Origin: Persicimonas caeni
GTDB taxonomy: Bacteria > Myxococcota_A > Bradymonadia > Bradymonadales > Bradymonadaceae
NCBI RefSeq assembly: GCF_006517175.1
Contig: NZ_CP041186.1
Span: 7,715,074 to 7,779,073 of the forward strand
DNA length: 64,000 nt
Direction of reading: 5' to 3'
In this document: positions 18,057 to 52,538 of the stretch, in pieces
Layout of the letters: the number at the start of each line of letters is the position of its first letter
Position numbering within the stretch: position 1 is the first letter of the stretch
Made by a program: the position numbers and the translations under genes
Notes under the pieces: model-generated
Databases searched by the model: none
What the model was told of the DNA's origin: nothing
Seen by the model: the letters and a program-made list of their open reading frames with translations, nothing else

Positions 18057-18135
18057 TCGGCCCGTACTTAGCAACCACGCCAGTGCGGGGCGGCCACGGC
18101 ATTTCCACTTTTTCGTGCGGCTCTACAGGCCAGTC

Positions 18136-20064
18136 ATGATCGGCACCACGATTTCGCGCTACGACATCTTGGAGGAACTCGGCCAAGGGGGCATGTCCGT
18201 GGTGTATCTGGCTCAGGACACTGCTCTGGGCCGCGAAGTCGCCATCAAGTTGCTGCACGAGCACCTGGCCAAGAAGCTCGAAAACCGCCAGCGATTTCGC
18301 CGCGAGGCCGAGGCGATCGCGCGGCTGCGCCACCCCAATATCCTCGACGTGTACGATGTCTCCGACGAGAGCGACGAGCGCTCGTTCATCGTCATGGAGT
18401 ACATCCCGGGGATGAACTTGCGTCAGTTCATCGACCACCACGGCCCTCCCCCGCCCGAGATCGCCGCCCTGCTGGGCGTCGAGATTTGCAACGCGCTCGG
18501 CCACGCTCACAACCACGGCGTCATTCACCGTGATTTGAAGCCCGAAAACGTGATGATCTCCGACGATGGAGACGTCAAGTTGATGGACTTTGGCATCGCG
18601 CACGTCATCGACGCCGAGACGATGACCAAGACGGGCAGCCTGCTGGGCAGCCCCGCGCACATGGCGCCCGAGCTCATCGACGGCAAGAAAGTCGACGAGC
18701 GCGCCGACGTCTTTGCGCTGGGCACGGTTTTGTACTGGATGAGCACCGGCCAGCTCCCCTTTTGCGGCGACAACGCCCCCCAGGTGCTCCGTAACGTCAT
18801 GGAGTGCCGCTACGAGGAGCCCGAGGTCGTCGCACCGACCGTCGGCCACGACCTAGCGCGCATCATCTGCAAATGCCTGAACAAGGAGCCGGAAAACCGC
18901 TTCGCCTCGGTCGAGACGGTCAAGCGAGAGCTCTTTGCCGCGGTCCACTCGGTGGGGATCGAGGAGACCGACAAGGCGGTGCGCGAATACTTCGCAGATC
19001 CGGGCAAGTACACGGAAGCCTACGCCGAGCTGATCGTCCCCAAGCTCATCGCGCGCGGAAAGCAGGCGATGGAGCGCAAAAACGTCCCGGTGGCCATCGC
19101 GCACTTCAACCGCGTGCTCGCCTACGACCCGAAAAACGAAGAGGTGCGCGAGTGTCTCGATCAGCTCAACCGCAACCAGCAGGCGGCTCGCTTCGTGGCG
19201 GCGGCCGCGGTGCTCTTGTTGGTAGGCGTGGCGGGTTGGTGGATGTACGACATGACCGTCGACGAGCCGCAACCGAAGGTGAAGGCGGACGTCGAGGATG
19301 AGATCGCCGCGGCCGCCGAAGAGGAGGCGCAGGCAAAGGAGGCGAGCTTGAGCGCGGCGCTGACGCGCGTCGGTAGCGCTTATGGCGTCGCCGAGGGCGC
19401 CTCGGAGGCCGAGCATGCAGCCCAGACGGCGGTGCCGATTGCGCAGGATGTCGTCGGTCTGGCGCGTCGCGTCGCCAAGAAGGGAAAGCGGTTGGTGCAC
19501 ATCGCCAGCCTCAAAGCTCCTTCGGTCCAGCTCGTCGAAACGTCCGGCAACTCTAAAGAGGAGACGGAGGAGACGGGGAACGATGCCTCGCCCCCCGAGG
19601 CGGCCGAACAGACCTTCGAGGTGCAGTTCAAGGTCTTTCCCGGCTCGGCTCGCCTCGAGGTCGACGGAGAGAAGGTCTTCTGGCAGACCGAGAGCATTCA
19701 ACTCACCCGCGGCAAGCACGTCATCACCGCCAACGCGCCCGGCTGTAAGCCGTATCGCGAGATTCTGGTGGTAAACGAGCCCAGAACCGATAAGAATAAG
19801 GTTCCCGTGGTGCTCGAATGGAGACGAGCGACCATCAACGTCGTGTCGAACAAGAACGCGCTGGTCTACGTCGCCGGTGAGTCCGACCCACGCTCGAACG
19901 CGCGACGCAGCTCGATTTCGGTGCCGTTTCGACGCAAAATGGGCGACCCGACGAAGACGGTAAAGCTTCGCATCGCCGATGCCTCCAACCTGCAACGCGT
20001 CGAGGAGCGCGAAGTCGTCGTACGTGCCGGCGACAGTCGCACGGTCAAAGTCTACTTTCCCTGA
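18136..20064 (+). CDS. membrane Ser/Thr protein kinase with PEGA-like C-terminus
   Basis: 642 residues from the ATG at 18136 (ACAGG nearby; the GTG at 18115 adds seven unlikely residues). The N-terminal Hanks kinase domain looks fully active: glycine loop GQGGMSVV, Lys38 in VAIKLL, HRDLKPEN with Asp133, DFG at 151-153, APE at 177-179. A short TPR-like segment (about 300-340) precedes a single TM helix at about 352-370. Beyond the membrane is an Ala/Glu-rich stretch and two PEGA-like beta domains (FKVFPGSARLEVDGEKVFW). Topology implies a cytoplasmic kinase reading a periplasmic signal. Neighbouring FHA proteins are natural readers of its phosphothreonine products; the pairing is inferred. Confidence 0.9.
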   Translation: MIGTTISRYDILEELGQGGMSVVYLAQDTALGREVAIKLLHEHLAKKLENRQRFRREAEAIARLRHPNILDVYDVSDESDERSFIVMEYIPGMNLRQFIDHHGPPPPEIAALLGVEICNALGHAHNHGVIHRDLKPENVMISDDGDVKLMDFGIAHVIDAETMTKTGSLLGSPAHMAPELIDGKKVDERADVFALGTVLYWMSTGQLPFCGDNAPQVLRNVMECRYEEPEVVAPTVGHDLARIICKCLNKEPENRFASVETVKRELFAAVHSVGIEETDKAVREYFADPGKYTEAYAELIVPKLIARGKQAMERKNVPVAIAHFNRVLAYDPKNEEVRECLDQLNRNQQAARFVAAAAVLLLVGVAGWWMYDMTVDEPQPKVKADVEDEIAAAAEEEAQAKEASLSAALTRVGSAYGVAEGASEAEHAAQTAVPIAQDVVGLARRVAKKGKRLVHIASLKAPSVQLVETSGNSKEETEETGNDASPPEAAEQTFEVQFKVFPGSARLEVDGEKVFWQTESIQLTRGKHVITANAPGCKPYREILVVNEPRTDKNKVPVVLEWRRATINVVSNKNALVYVAGESDPRSNARRSSISVPFRRKMGDPTKTVKLRIADASNLQRVEEREVVVRAGDSRTVKVYFP

Positions 20065-20072
20065 AGCCTCCG

Positions 20073-21050
20073 ATGTTCCAACGGCTGTCCACCTCTGTGC
20101 TGTTCGTGCTCGGCGCCGCTCTCTGGGCGACGCCGTCGCTGGCGCAGACACCGCCGCCGCCCGACGAAGGCACCACCCCCGTCAAGACAGCCCCCACGGC
20201 CGAACACGACTTTCCCGAAGCTCCCAAGGCACGGCTCGAGCGCGCCCAGAAGGCATTCCAGGACGCCGAGTACGACCTGCTGAGACCGCTGCTCGAACCG
20301 ACGCTGTCGCCCACGAGTCAATTCGCCCAGACCGAGTCGGAGCTCGAGGCGCGCACGCTTCTGGGCGTCGGGCTGTACTTCGAGGCCCAGAAAGTCACCG
20401 ACGCCGAGCAGCGGCGCGAGCTCCTCGACACGACACGCCGGCATTTCCTCGAGATCCTGCGCAAGGAGCCCGACCACTCGCTCAACCCCCTGCTCTACCC
20501 GGCCAGCGTCGTCGAGCTTTTCGAGGCGGTTCGCGAGGAGAACGCCGAGGAACTCGACAAGATTCGCGCCCAGCGCGACGACGCCAACGGCGACGTGGCG
20601 GCTCAGGGCCTCAAGAGCATCTATATCCAGCGCGAGGTCGACCACCGGCTGTACGCGGCCAACTTCTTGCCCTTCGGCCTCGGTCAGTTCCAAAACGGCG
20701 AGCAGGTCCAGGGAACGCTATTCGCCGGCGCGCAGACCGCGGCGCTGGGGTTGAACGTGGCGAGCTACGTGATGATCGAAAGCCTTCGCGGTGATGACGG
20801 CTACTATGACCGAGGCGCCGGCGGGACCACTGAACAGGCGCTGCAATGGCGTACCGCTCAATACGTGGGCCTGGGCCTCTTCGTAGGCTTCTATGCCTGG
20901 TCGGTCATCGACGCGCTACGAGACTACGAGCCGTACGACGTGCGCATCCGCAGCCTCGACGAGCCTCCGCCGGAATTATCGGCCGGCGAGGCGGATGACA
21001 AGGGGGCTACTTTTCAAATAGGATTGGGTGGCCTTGGTGTTACGTGGTAA
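20073..21050 (+). CDS. exported membrane-associated protein (DUF5683-like region)
   Basis: 325 residues with a signal peptide (SVLFVLGAALWATPSLAQ). The first half has helical TPR-like character (RAQKAFQDAEYDLLRPLLEP). The second half (about 205-290) contains hydrophobic segments around NFLPFGLGQFQNGEQVQGTL and QYVGLGLFVGFYAWSVIDAL, reminiscent of DUF5683-type small membrane domains. It starts 9 bp after the kinase stop, so co-translation with the kinase is likely and a shared pathway probable. Biochemical role unknown. Confidence 0.75.
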   Translation: MFQRLSTSVLFVLGAALWATPSLAQTPPPPDEGTTPVKTAPTAEHDFPEAPKARLERAQKAFQDAEYDLLRPLLEPTLSPTSQFAQTESELEARTLLGVGLYFEAQKVTDAEQRRELLDTTRRHFLEILRKEPDHSLNPLLYPASVVELFEAVREENAEELDKIRAQRDDANGDVAAQGLKSIYIQREVDHRLYAANFLPFGLGQFQNGEQVQGTLFAGAQTAALGLNVASYVMIESLRGDDGYYDRGAGGTTEQALQWRTAQYVGLGLFVGFYAWSVIDALRDYEPYDVRIRSLDEPPPELSAGEADDKGATFQIGLGGLGVTW

Positions 21051-21100
21051 CAACGAGGCGAAACGCCAATGACCTATTTGGGAACCTGGGAACGACGACC

Positions 21101-22897
21101 ATGCCCACCCTCATTGTCCAATCGGCCGACGGCTCGACGAGCCGTGATTACCCGCTTCGTAAGACGCTGACCTCGATCGGTTCGGGGCGCACCAACGACA
21201 TCGTGCTCGACGACCCGAGCGTCGAGGCGAGCCACGCCATGATCCAGCTCGACGGCGGGGTCTTCGAGATCCAGACCGTCAGCCGCAAGTGCGAAGTGCG
21301 CATCAACGGCAAGAAGAAGCGAAAGCTCAAGCTGTCGCACGACGACGAGGTCCAGATCGGCGACGTGGTGCTGCGCTTCTCCATCTTCGACGGCGCGCCG
21401 GCGGCCGGGCTTGCCGAAGAGAGCGTCACCGGAGAAGAGATCGAGGGCTACCGCAAGCTACACGAGTTCTCGCAAAAGCTGTTGAGCGACTACGAGCTTC
21501 CGGTCCTCCTCGAGAACTTGCTCGACGCGGTCGTTTCGATCACCTCGGCCGACAAGGGCTTTTTGATCCTGCTCGAGGACGAGGAGTTTCGCATCAAGGT
21601 GGCGCGCAACGTCGACCGCGAGAATATCGAGGGCGCCGTCGAGCAGGTCTCCGACTCGATCATTCGCAAGGTCATCGAGAGCAAAGAGCCGCTCATCGTC
21701 AGCGACGCGCTCTCCAACAGCGAGTTCAACAGCTCGCAGTCGGTCATCAACCTGAACCTGTCGAGCGTGATGTGCGTGCCGCTCTTGGACCGCGGCCAGC
21801 TTCTGGGCGTGCTCTATGTCGGTAACGAAAATATCGCCAACCTCTTCGAGCAGCGCCACCTCGACCTGCTGACGGTCTTCGCCTCGCAGGCGAGCCTGAT
21901 CATCGCCAACGCGATCATGGTGCGCGGCCTGAAGCTCGATAAGCAGCTTCTGAGCGAGCGCCTCAGCGAGATGCGCTTTGGCAGCATCATCGGCGCCTGC
22001 GACGCGATGAAGGAGATCTTTCGCACCGTCGAGAAGGTCGCGCCCACCACGGTCAACGTGCTCGTCACCGGCGAGACCGGCACCGGCAAGGAGCTTATCG
22101 CCCACGAGATTCACCAGCGCTCGCCGCGTGTAAAGGGGCCGTTCGTGACGATCAACTGCGGCGCCATCCCCGAAAACCTGCTCGAAAGCGAGCTGTTCGG
22201 CCACGTCAAAGGGGCGTTCACGGGGGCGAATCAGACCCGCGAGGGTAAATTCCAGGCCGCCGACGGCGGTACCATCTTTCTCGACGAGATCGGCGAGATG
22301 CCGCTGAACCTGCAGGTCAAACTGCTGCGCGTGCTCCAGGAGCACACGGTCACCAAGGTCGGCGCCACCAAGTCCGAGAAGATCGACATCCGCGTGGTCG
22401 CCGCGACCAACAAGAACCTCGAGAAGGCCGTGCGAGAGGGTGATTTCCGCGAAGACCTCTTCTACCGCCTCAACGTGGTCCTGCTAAAGCTCCCGCCGCT
22501 TCGCGACCGCGGGAACGACGTGGTGCTCATCGCCAAATACCTCATCAACGAGATCTCGGACGAGATCGGCGTGGGCCACAAGGAGCTGAGCAAGGAGGCC
22601 ATCCAGGCGCTTCGCAAATACGCCTGGCCGGGCAATATCCGCCAGCTCGAAAACCGCCTTAAAAAGGCGATCGTGCTCGCCGACGGCAGCGTGCTCACCC
22701 CCGAAGATCTCGACCTGCCACCTGAGGTGCTCGAGCCGATCATGCCGCTGTCCGAGGCCAAGGAGCGCTTCGCGCTGCGCTACGTCATGGAGGCCTTGGA
22801 GCGAAACGACGGCAACCGCACCCAGACCGCCCGCGAGCTCGATGTCGATCCGCGAACCATTTTTCGCTATCTAGAAAAGGAGACCCCCGAGGCGTGA
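21101..22897 (+). CDS. FHA-GAF sigma-54-dependent transcriptional activator
   Basis: 598 residues from the ATG at 21101 (GGGAACGACGACC upstream; the frame reaches back to 21044 but overlaps the previous gene). Order: FHA domain 1-95 ([19 protein letters not shown]) which should bind phosphothreonine; GAF domain about 115-270; sigma-54 AAA+ domain with Walker A GETGTGKE (324-331), the sigma-54 loop GAFTGA (371-376) and Walker B TIFLDE; Fis-type HTH at the C-terminus ([19 protein letters not shown]). FHA instead of a receiver means control by Ser/Thr phosphorylation, as in Myxococcus FHA activators. The kinase two genes upstream is the obvious candidate signal source. Possible binding dyads lie directly downstream. 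Confidence 0.93.
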
Positions 22898-22925: not shown

Positions 22926-22979
22926 TGACATTTTCGTCATCGACGCGCCCCGGATATGACACCGCTGTCATATCCGGGG
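22926..22979. promoter_or_regulatory. paired TGACA-type dyads, candidate activator binding sites
   Basis: Two 14-bp dyads of the same form lie 31 bp apart: TGACATTTTCGTCA (22926-22939) and TGACACCGCTGTCA (22957-22970). The second sits at the centre of a perfect 14-bp inverted repeat with a 4-nt CCGC loop (22948-22979). No T-run follows, so a terminator is less likely than an operator. Relative to the -24/-12 promoter at 23024-23039 they fall at about -80 to -125, the usual distance for a sigma-54 enhancer. Confidence 0.55.
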
Positions 22980-23022
22980 CTACACACCCACCGCGCACGG
23001 GCTCCTGAGCAGTATCTCCCGC

Positions 23023-23586
23023 ATGGCACGTCTTCTGCAAAACCTCATGCCGAGCAAAGGGTTGGCTCGACAGCTGCCCTTGTTGCTCGTAGCTGCTGTG
23101 TTGAGCGGCTGCATTTTGTCGCCGCCCATCGAGCCGCGCGATGAGCCGAACTACTCGCCGCGAATCGGGCCATTGTGGCCCAACGGGATCGACCCGTATG
23201 TGCGCGTGACCCGTGACCAGTTTGCCAACGGGAGTATCGAGTTGAGAGCGAAGCTATTCGACGGAAACGACGAGTCCGAGTTGCATTTCCTGTTGGTCAG
23301 CGACCACGACGGCATCATCGAGAACGCGATCGCATTGCCGGCCGCCTGTAGTAGCGAAGACGACGCTGACGAGTACTGCTACGGCGTGGTCGACCATACG
23401 GTTAACCCGTGCGACAGCGGAGTGACCATTCCGGGCACCGAAGTGATCACACTCGTCGTCTCCGATCGACCGTTTCGCACCATCTCACCGCTGCTGAGCA
23501 TGATTGAGGAGGCGCCAGACGCCATTATGGTGACTTATTCGTGGACGTTGAACTACGAAGCCGGATTCTGTCCCCTGGATAACTGA
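23023..23586 (+). CDS. lipoprotein, function unknown
   Basis: 187 residues from the ATG at 23023; a start at 23047 (MPSKGLARQL) still gives a complete lipoprotein signal with lipobox LSGC and is preferred if the -24/-12 promoter is used. The mature protein is beta-rich with six Cys in its second half (AACSSEDDADEYCYG, NPCDSG, GFCPLDN), fitting an oxidised extracytoplasmic domain. No family recognised. It lies just downstream of the sigma-54 activator gene and 2 bp before another lipoprotein gene, so the pair may be the regulator's target operon. Confidence 0.7.
   Translation: MARLLQNLMPSKGLARQLPLLLVAAVLSGCILSPPIEPRDEPNYSPRIGPLWPNGIDPYVRVTRDQFANGSIELRAKLFDGNDESELHFLLVSDHDGIIENAIALPAACSSEDDADEYCYGVVDHTVNPCDSGVTIPGTEVITLVVSDRPFRTISPLLSMIEEAPDAIMVTYSWTLNYEAGFCPLDN
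23024..23039 (+). promoter_or_regulatory. candidate sigma-54 (-24/-12) promoter
   Basis: TGGCACGTCTTCTGCA matches the consensus TGGCACG-N4-TTGCA at every defined position but one, with GG and GC in correct spacing. Expected start of transcription is near 23050. It overlaps the apparent ATG at 23023, so if real, translation must begin at the ATG at 23047 (nearly leaderless) or further in. Confidence 0.45.
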
Positions 23587-23588
23587 AG

Positions 23589-25322
23589 ATGATGTATTCG
23601 AGGCTTCAAAACACCACGATGCTCGCCGTCATCGGCACGCTGGGACTGGTGCTAACCGGTTGCGCAGAGAATGCGACGAGTGGCGCGTCGACGGTCGGCG
23701 GAGTGGATAATTGCGCAGTCGACTCCGATTGCCCCGGCGGTCAAATGTGCCGTGCGGGATTCTGTTCGACGCGCGGCAGCGCAGCCACCGACATCAACTT
23801 TCGTTTCTTGCCGTCCAACACGACCGGCTTTCTGCCGCAGTACCGTGAGAACGTGCGCGTGCAGGCCGATGATTCGGTCGATTTCCTGTTGCAGCGCGGC
23901 GTGACCGTCAGCAGCGGAGGGGCCAGCGGCAACGCCGAGCAATCGGGCGGGATTCGCTACGCTGACTCCACCACCCCGGGCGGTCCCGATGGCACCCTTC
24001 TTTTCCGACCCCAGGACGCCTCCGACGGGCTATTCATCCGTCAGGCCCACGTCGACGACGGGCGCTTCGACACGACCGTCAATCCTGGCGTCTACACGGT
24101 GACGTTCGTTCCTGACGAGAGCGACAAGTTGCCCAAAAAGACTTGGCGAAGACGAGAGTTCAACAGCAACACGGTGCTCTCGCTCTCCGTGCTCCCTTCG
24201 AGCGAGTATCTCGTGGTCGATGGTCGCCTATCGCGCGAGATTGTGTGGCCTGACGGCACGTCCGGAACAGATGAGTCGGTGAACAACGTGCGCGTGTATG
24301 CGCTGTCGACGTCCGGCGAATATAGCAGCACCGAAGTCATCCCAACGGCCAATGGCGAGTTTGACCTGCGCGTCGCCCCCGAGACCGGCACCTATGACCT
24401 CTACGTCGTTCCCGCCAGCTCGGAGTCGATGGTTCCCAGCGTTCGCTTCGACGCCGCATTCGACGCGTTGGCGACCAAATGTGTGACCAGCAGCACTCAA
24501 GGTGGCGGTGAGGTGTGCGCGTGGAGTGGAAGCCTCGGCGCCTACCCTGCCGAGCCCGCCACGGTCAGCGTCCAACTCGTAGCCCCGGACGGATTCAGCA
24601 GTGAGGACAACTGGCAGGGAACGAGCCTCGTCGTCCGCGGTCCGCTCGGACGCGGCAATTTCGCGCGCAGGTTCTCTGCAGACAACGAAGGCAAATTCGA
24701 GCTGACGCTCTTTCCCGCCGATTGGTCCTTCGACGAGCTCCGGCAATACACCCTCGAGGTCATCCCCCCGGCGCGCTCACCATTCGTGCGCAAGACCTTC
24801 GAGCTGACCGGCGCCATCGGCACGGACGTCACGCACCGCTTCGAGCTCGATCTCAAAGAGCGCGTGACGGGCTCGGTGCTCGATGCCGGGGGAAATCCCA
24901 TGGCCTCGGCCGAACTCGAATTCCGCCTCGACTCCGACGCGTACTCCGAAGACGAGCACCTCGACGAACGCGCCATCACGGTGACGACCGATGAGGAGGG
25001 CCGCTTCGAGGCCTGGCTCGAACCGATGCGTTACGATGTGCACGTGGTGCCGCCAGAAAGCTCCGGCCAGCCGCGCACGATCGCCCAGGCCGACGTCTCT
25101 GCGCTCCGCACGGGTGAACCGCTGCAGATCGAGCTTCCCCGCCCGACCGTGCTCGTCGGCTCAGTCTTCGGCGCGGAAAGCTCTGACGGTGACGATATCG
25201 CCGGGGTCGGCGACGTGAGCGTAGAAGCCTACCGGGTCATCGACGGGCGTACCGTCATCCTGGGCAAGGCGCGGACAGATGCCGACGGACGCTTTCGAAT
25301 GGTCGTCTCGTCAGAACTCTGA
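23589..25322 (+). CDS. lipoprotein with carboxypeptidase-regulatory-like beta domains
   Basis: 577 residues with lipobox LTGC. A short Cys motif follows (CAVDSDCPGGQMCRAGFC), common in myxobacterial surface lipoproteins. Then come several beta-sandwich repeats of CarboxypepD_reg type, recognisable from VDGRLSREIVWPDG, VTGSVLDAGGNPMASAELEF and VLVGSVFGAES, each followed by an E/DGRF turn (TDEEGRFEAWL, TDADGRFRMVV). These domains usually mediate adhesion or structural roles. Two bp after the preceding lipoprotein gene, so co-transcribed. Confidence 0.8.
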   Translation: MMYSRLQNTTMLAVIGTLGLVLTGCAENATSGASTVGGVDNCAVDSDCPGGQMCRAGFCSTRGSAATDINFRFLPSNTTGFLPQYRENVRVQADDSVDFLLQRGVTVSSGGASGNAEQSGGIRYADSTTPGGPDGTLLFRPQDASDGLFIRQAHVDDGRFDTTVNPGVYTVTFVPDESDKLPKKTWRRREFNSNTVLSLSVLPSSEYLVVDGRLSREIVWPDGTSGTDESVNNVRVYALSTSGEYSSTEVIPTANGEFDLRVAPETGTYDLYVVPASSESMVPSVRFDAAFDALATKCVTSSTQGGGEVCAWSGSLGAYPAEPATVSVQLVAPDGFSSEDNWQGTSLVVRGPLGRGNFARRFSADNEGKFELTLFPADWSFDELRQYTLEVIPPARSPFVRKTFELTGAIGTDVTHRFELDLKERVTGSVLDAGGNPMASAELEFRLDSDAYSEDEHLDERAITVTTDEEGRFEAWLEPMRYDVHVVPPESSGQPRTIAQADVSALRTGEPLQIELPRPTVLVGSVFGAESSDGDDIAGVGDVSVEAYRVIDGRTVILGKARTDADGRFRMVVSSEL

Positions 25323-52503: not shown

Positions 52504-52538
52504 AAAAGCCCGGAGCGTTTGAACCGCTCCGGGCTTTT
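52504..52538 (-). terminator. bidirectional-looking terminator after icd
   Basis: AAAAGCCCGGAGCG (52504-52517) pairs with CGCTCCGGGCTTTT (52525-52538) around a 7-nt loop. A and T runs flank both sides, so it can stop transcription either way. Lies 34 bp beyond the icd stop. Confidence 0.88.

Follow-up and report, generated by a model that had tools for sequence, protein, structure and literature searches.

The window, the whole 64-kb stretch of DNA analysed here, lies in a complete 8.05-Mb genome. Its gene row encodes, in order, a 974-aa predicted lipoprotein, a Ser/Thr kinase, an unknown protein of 325 aa, an FHA/GAF/sigma-54 activator, and lipoproteins 1 and 2. The row is retained in family f1, with identities of 53-75% for the activator and 24-48% for lipoproteins 1 and 2. 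The features discussed below are, in window coordinates:

18115..20064, + strand: Ser/Thr protein kinase (Pkinase domain; synteny in family f1)
20073..21050, + strand: conserved gene between kinase and activator (synteny in family f1)
21044..22897, + strand: FHA-GAF-AAA+ (sigma-54 activator)-Fis-type HTH protein, 617 aa as listed (Pfam domains, GAFTGA motif, orthologues)
22926..22939, no strand: distal dyad TGACATTTTCGTCA, 9/10 of TGACA-N4-TGTCA, centred at about -117 from the predicted +1
22947..22980, no strand: perfect 34-bp palindrome around the proximal dyad (15-bp arms, 4-base loop; not conserved)
22957..22970, no strand: proximal dyad TGACACCGCTGTCA, 10/10 of the same motif, centred at about -86 from the predicted +1
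23023..23586, + strand: lipoprotein 1, 187 aa from ATG 23023, lipobox LSGC with its Cys codon at 23110-23112 (homologues behind the activator in family f1)
23024..23039, + strand: -24/-12 element of the predicted sigma-54 promoter, TGGCACGTCTTCTGCA (consensus match and conservation)
23050, + strand: predicted transcription start (+1), 12 nt past the C at -12 by standard sigma-54 promoter geometry
23589..25322, + strand: lipoprotein 2, 577 aa, CarboxypepD_reg domain; start 539 nt past the predicted +1

The activator contains FHA (residues 43-106), GAF (153-287), Sigma54_activat (315-481) and HTH_8 (580-608) domains in Pfam. It thus combines the hallmarks of a bEBP: an AAA+ sigma-54 interaction domain, a GAFTGA loop visible in the translation and a DNA-binding HTH. 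One clear orthologue was present in 51 of the 57 genomes of the class. The listed GTG start (21044) overlaps the preceding gene; as orthologues begin with MPTL or MPSL at ATG 21101, the true start is probably there. The kinase is a plausible partner of the activator's FHA domain, and no Pfam domain was found in the gene between them. About 35 proteins of the window's genome match the activator. The genome has a single match to a sigma-54 gene, identified as rpoN by its Sigma54_DBD domain (E 7e-65, G000:C1:2438794-2439273).

Promoter and dyad motifs behind the activator gene

Promoter and terminator scans revealed neither a sigma-70-like promoter nor an intrinsic terminator between the activator and lipoprotein 1 genes. 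The initial annotation had described a box one mismatch from the -24/-12 consensus with exact GG/GC spacing, and this description was accurate. The element TGGCACGTCTTCTGCA matches 11 of the 12 defined positions of TGGCAYR-N4-TTGCW, with exactly 12 bp from GG to GC, and is the only match of at least 11/12 on either strand of the 64 kb. With its GC at -13/-12, transcription is predicted by rule to begin at about 23050, so that ATG 23047 lies just upstream, outside the mRNA.

The two TGACA-type dyads, annotated as 31 bp apart, were located at 22926-22939 and 22957-22970; this separation equals three helical turns. Both have the form TGAC-N6-GTCA, and they are the only matches to TGACA-N4-TGTCA of at least 9/10 on either strand of the window. 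They stand 98 and 67 bp, respectively, before the TGG of the promoter element, the arrangement of a UAS (a conserved inverted repeat roughly 70-150 bp upstream). In 20 trials with mononucleotide shuffles of the window, promoters (at least 11/12) averaged 0.85 and dyads (at least 9/10) 1.2 per trial, while the dyad-promoter combination never arose (0/20). Single motifs are therefore attainable by chance in 64 kb; the combination is not. What settles the reality of the element is its conservation in relatives.

A perfect 14-bp inverted repeat had also been noted. The repeat is present but longer, with 15-bp arms, a 4-base loop and a total of 34 bp, and is missing from the nearest relative. The 64 kb contain a single further perfect hairpin with arms of at least 10 bp, at 52504-52538; with its 14-bp arms and TTTT end, it looks like an intrinsic terminator.

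Conservation within and beyond the order

Conservation of the dyads and of the GG/GC dinucleotides in relatives, on which the initial annotation had staked its reading, was borne out. Of the order's 24 loci, 22 carry an element of at least 11/12 within 200 bp past the activator stop, where dinucleotide shuffles would give 0.05. When loci were aligned on the element, T-GG-C-A and TGC were near-invariant (one A excepted), while flanking columns mostly carried 0-0.5 bits, save for a T/A preference just past the box. The conserved columns are partly a selection effect, as matches were picked for those very positions, and it is for this reason that the shuffle control matters. Of 25 loci examined, 23 have a dyad of at least 8/10, which usually stands 90-100 bp ahead of the -24 box. 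Behind the activator, 28 dyads scored at least 8/10 (1.3 expected) and 20 at least 9/10 (0.1 expected). These data support a real, conserved sigma-54 promoter, as predicted from sequence, with enhancer-type dyads directly behind the activator gene.

The distal dyad of the window is the equivalent of the conserved dyad position in relatives. A second dyad was seen in a minority of them only (e.g. G015, G003, G010). Thus the pairing described by the initial annotation exists here but is not the rule, as most relatives have one recognisable dyad. Judged by this comparison, a single dyad is the conserved feature, and the proximal dyad and its palindrome are additions of the window's genome. The distal, conserved dyad is probably the activator-binding enhancer, and from adjacency and co-conservation we infer that the neighbouring activator would bind the dyads. 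In genus g13, most of genus g3, G006 and G027, the TGA of a TGACA-type dyad is itself the activator stop codon, so that operator and stop codon share DNA.

Families f3, f5 and f7 showed no such element behind their activator orthologues, save weak or misplaced matches, and f6 (G031) has a weak 10/12 box only; the arrangement is thus not class-wide. Beyond these, a -24/-12-like box was observed behind distant orthologues on two contigs titled Proteobacteria and Myxococcales (L141, L142) and in an Archangiaceae MAG (L143). In all three the box is in frame with a lipoprotein gene and lies at its start, and in L141 and L142 a dyad lies 69 bp before it. Because these distant loci repeat the arrangement, it may be older than the order.

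A reading frame across the promoter

Lipoprotein 1 opens with codons that are also the promoter: ATG GCA CGT CTT CTG CA. No convincing Shine-Dalgarno sequence was found ahead of this ATG at 23023. Two further in-frame starts are ATG 23047, upstream of the predicted +1, and TTG 23062, downstream of it. Across family f1 the lipoprotein 1 frame traverses the promoter in all 19 members, placing the promoter inside a translated reading frame, and in nine it falls within the signal-peptide core. The box is always read as nTG GCA nnn nnn nTG. It is separated from the lipobox Cys by nine different distances (26, 35, 38, 59, 65, 74, 80, 86 and 89 nt), all 2 mod 3, which indicates that indels between promoter and lipobox have been filtered by translation starting no later than the box. 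For its Ala, the box uses GCA at 19/19 sites. Since the activator genes encode on average about 10% of their Ala residues by GCA, and the window's activator gene 0%, its invariance in the box points to selection on the DNA as well as on the protein.

In the nearest relative (G008), an in-frame stop lies 36 nt before the predicted +1 and the equivalent of the 23047 start is absent. Ahead of its hydrophobic core only two starts occur, an ATG that shares bases with the -24 box and a GTG that does so with the -12 box. The -24-box ATG is the usable start in G008 as well as in G004, and the latter has an AGGA 12 nt ahead of that ATG, i.e. upstream of the promoter. In g3, g13 and G007 the lipobox Cys codon follows the predicted +1 after 0-12 nt, so the sigma-54 transcript cannot encode a signal peptide there. 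From the predicted +1 to the lipoprotein 1 stop is 462-537 nt in f1.

We consider it likely that the locus holds a functional sigma-54 promoter with its enhancer, that it is the cis target of the upstream activator, and that the promoter is intragenic and mainly supplies lipoprotein 2. By sequence, the sigma-54 transcript would lack the true lipoprotein 1 start. From the geometry we infer which lipoprotein gains: the promoter most likely yields chiefly an mRNA for lipoprotein 2, whose leader would run to about 540 nt. As the promoter sits within the first codons of lipoprotein 1, activation probably boosts lipoprotein 2 rather than simply both. The genes of lipoproteins 1 and 2 often overlap or almost touch (ATGA or a few bases), which suggests that the two are translationally coupled; if so, a transcript without the lipoprotein 1 start might translate lipoprotein 2 poorly.

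In the mechanism we propose, the FHA and GAF domains would switch the activator, probably via the Ser/Thr kinase of the same gene row. The activator would bind the TGACA-N4-TGTCA dyad(s) and loop to RNA polymerase-sigma-54 held at 23024-23039, and a transcript would begin near 23050. The -24/-12 box would at the same time provide lipoprotein 1 with its start and first codons. The sigma-54 mRNA, without the normal lipoprotein 1 start, would chiefly supply lipoprotein 2 behind its roughly 540-nt leader, and full-length lipoprotein 1 would probably come from read-through mRNA of the kinase-activator operon.

Other readings of the motifs fit less well. That chance or coding constraint produced the -24/-12 box, as a mere reflection of a conserved lipoprotein gene start, is hardly credible. 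In f1 the element often begins at the ATG and is never out of frame, as a coding origin would have it, but the box is kept with differing residues (MARLLQ, LARVLH, VAWFML, LAYFVL) and always with GCA; in f2 (G025) it is out of frame, and it is accompanied by upstream dyads. Codon choice, together with conservation despite different residues, refutes this origin. We hold it very unlikely that the 34-bp palindrome is the activator gene's terminator and the inner dyad a by-product of the hairpin. The perfect 15-bp stem with its 4-nt loop, 50 bp past the stop codon, would form a very stable fold, yet the hairpin at 22947-22980 has no T-run and is absent from the terminator scan. The palindrome is not conserved whereas the dyads are, and both TGAC-N6-GTCA dyads match a motif that precedes many sigma-54 promoters without long hairpins. 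A terminator role was rejected on the missing T-run and the missing conservation; the palindrome could attenuate read-through in the window's genome. Alternatively, the promoter might be real but its dyads read by another sigma-54 activator or a repressor, adjacency being an accident of gene order. The roughly 35 activator matches in the genome leave room for such a regulator, similar dyads precede many other sigma-54 promoters, and a related motif, yGTCA-N6-TGACr, has been proposed for a different Desulfovibrio activator (PMC4641369). This is quite unlikely, given that almost all genomes of the order have the dyad behind the activator orthologue, often inside the stop codon, and that it lies behind distant orthologues too (L141, L142). 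G011, the sole family member without an orthologue, gave no dyad/-24/-12 pair in the pattern searches, a point drawn from one genome and shared by several genomes that do have the orthologue.

The initial annotation had the enhancer and promoter controlling both lipoproteins. Its conserved sigma-54 promoter with dyads stands (22/24 loci), but control of both sits poorly with a frame that traverses the promoter in 19/19 f1 members. For both to be served, lipoprotein 1 would be made from a nearly leaderless mRNA at ATG 23047 or from TTG 23062, which we regard as unlikely. The TTG, 12 nt past the predicted +1, leaves a minimal but possible lipoprotein signal peptide (MARQLPLLLVAAVLSGC). In family f2 the promoter precedes its gene in the normal order with an ordinary leader in at least two genomes (G025 and G023), so the intragenic position is not universal, and most of the other regulon promoters described below that precede a gene have ordinary leaders. 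Against this, the predicted +1 lies 3 nt past the A of ATG 23047, and the equivalent start is missing in G008, G004 and most other members. In g3, g13 and G007 the +1 coincides with the lipobox Cys or precedes it by a few bases, which leaves no signal peptide possible. The conservation of frame through the promoter argues that ribosomes read across it. An mRNA starting almost at ATG 23047, as had been suggested, finds no support in that form: the predicted +1 falls after that ATG, which has no equivalent in the nearest relative. Leaderless translation at 23047 was rejected on the +1 rule and the missing start in relatives. A further variant, to which we give little probability, is a product switch in which read-through mRNA would yield exported lipoprotein 1 and sigma-54 mRNA only a form that lacks the signal and stays in the cytoplasm. 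The eight g3 and g13 genomes examined all have, 36-57 nt past the predicted +1, a GTG accompanied by a Shine-Dalgarno-like sequence. As TTG 23062 in the window's genome would still give a signal peptide, such a switch would hold for part of the family at most.

The regulon and its relation to known systems

By pattern search, exact TGACA-N4-TGTCA occurs at eight places in the window's genome. Besides the window site, four of these (1863567, 3369543, 3540724 and 3990235) have a -24/-12 element 70-122 bp downstream, the one at 3369543 reading CGGCA. Across 26 genomes, a dyad followed after 50-80 bp by TGGCA-N7-TGC was found at 21 sites (3 with reversed-pattern controls), and after 80-110 bp at 29 sites (0 with controls), or 50 versus 3 for both spacings together. 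Among class genomes outside the order, 2 of 31 match a similar pattern, one again behind the activator gene. The recurrence of these pairs across genomes points to a regulon. Many of the genes downstream of its sites are predicted lipoproteins, and three in genus g13 are, by eye, Ser/Thr-kinase-like. Unlike the window promoter, regulon promoters that precede a gene mostly have ordinary leaders.

At one of these sites (G000:C1:3540724-3540960; L134/L224) a conserved sequence of about 100 nt follows instead of a gene, and similar loci were found elsewhere (L066, L137, L116, L138, L136, L226, L236-L238). Its core, GGGAG...TTCCCCAAC...CTCCC, forms a GGGAG/CUCCC stem with a C-rich loop, with a terminator-like hairpin in most copies. 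The copies have a -24/-12 promoter and most a TGACA-N4-TGTCA dyad; no dyad was found for those in genus g13. The sequence had no Rfam match, and an Rfam search of the window stretch gave nothing credible. A model built from it found a second set of matches, and on their other strand lies the leader of a Fic-family gene (PF02661), in the window's genome:

G000:C1:2247550-2247591 (L233), opposite strand: Fic-family gene leader (also L234, L235, L229-L232, L239)

Exact antisense complementarity between small RNA and Fic leader spans 25-30 nt in G000, G008 and genus g13, 16 in G004 and 15 in G003, and is mostly longer within a genome than across genomes. The sequence looks like a candidate sigma-54-controlled antisense small RNA with one main target. 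In G010, the gene homologous to the Fic-family gene seems to have a dyad/-24/-12 promoter of its own (L131).

In a bacterial order that has received little study, these predictions connect an operon for Ser/Thr-kinase/FHA signalling with a DNA motif and with a regulon; a limited literature search found no target of such an activator in this order. The motif opens up that regulon, including the apparent sigma-54-driven small RNA. A sigma-54 site that doubles as start codon or signal peptide would be a clean natural case of dual-coding DNA, and the model predicts that throwing the switch alters the ratio of the two lipoproteins, not only their amount.

The locus resembles NtrC/NifA-type systems, in which a bEBP-dependent sigma-54 promoter lies beside the gene of its own activator. 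Shared features are the GG/GC spacing, the consensus, two dyads separated by three helical turns and centred some 86 and 117 bp ahead of +1, and an AAA+ GAFTGA activator with a Fis-type HTH encoded next door. The locus differs in having an FHA+GAF sensor, tied to a Ser/Thr kinase gene, in place of a receiver domain, in its TGACA-N4-TGTCA dyad, and in a promoter placed inside the target's first codons. An activator motif predicted for DVU2894 of Desulfovibrio vulgaris, yGTCA-N6-TGACr (PMC4641369), is likewise a short GTCA/TGAC inverted repeat with a 6-base spacer in an autogenous context, but its half-sites are in the opposite order and the activator is a different one.

Intragenic sigma-54 promoters have precedents in E. 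coli and Salmonella (nagB/nagE, yqeC/yqeB, rlmD/relA; PMC4591121, PMC3844500), which are conserved and lie in sense orientation inside a gene. In E. coli, three conserved promoters of this kind drive the next gene (PMC4591121); the leaders of 360-760 nt in the E. coli and Salmonella cases compare with about 540 nt predicted here. Unlike those, the promoter described here sits at the very start of its host gene, where it shares DNA with the start codon or with codons of the signal peptide, and has its enhancer and activator immediately upstream.
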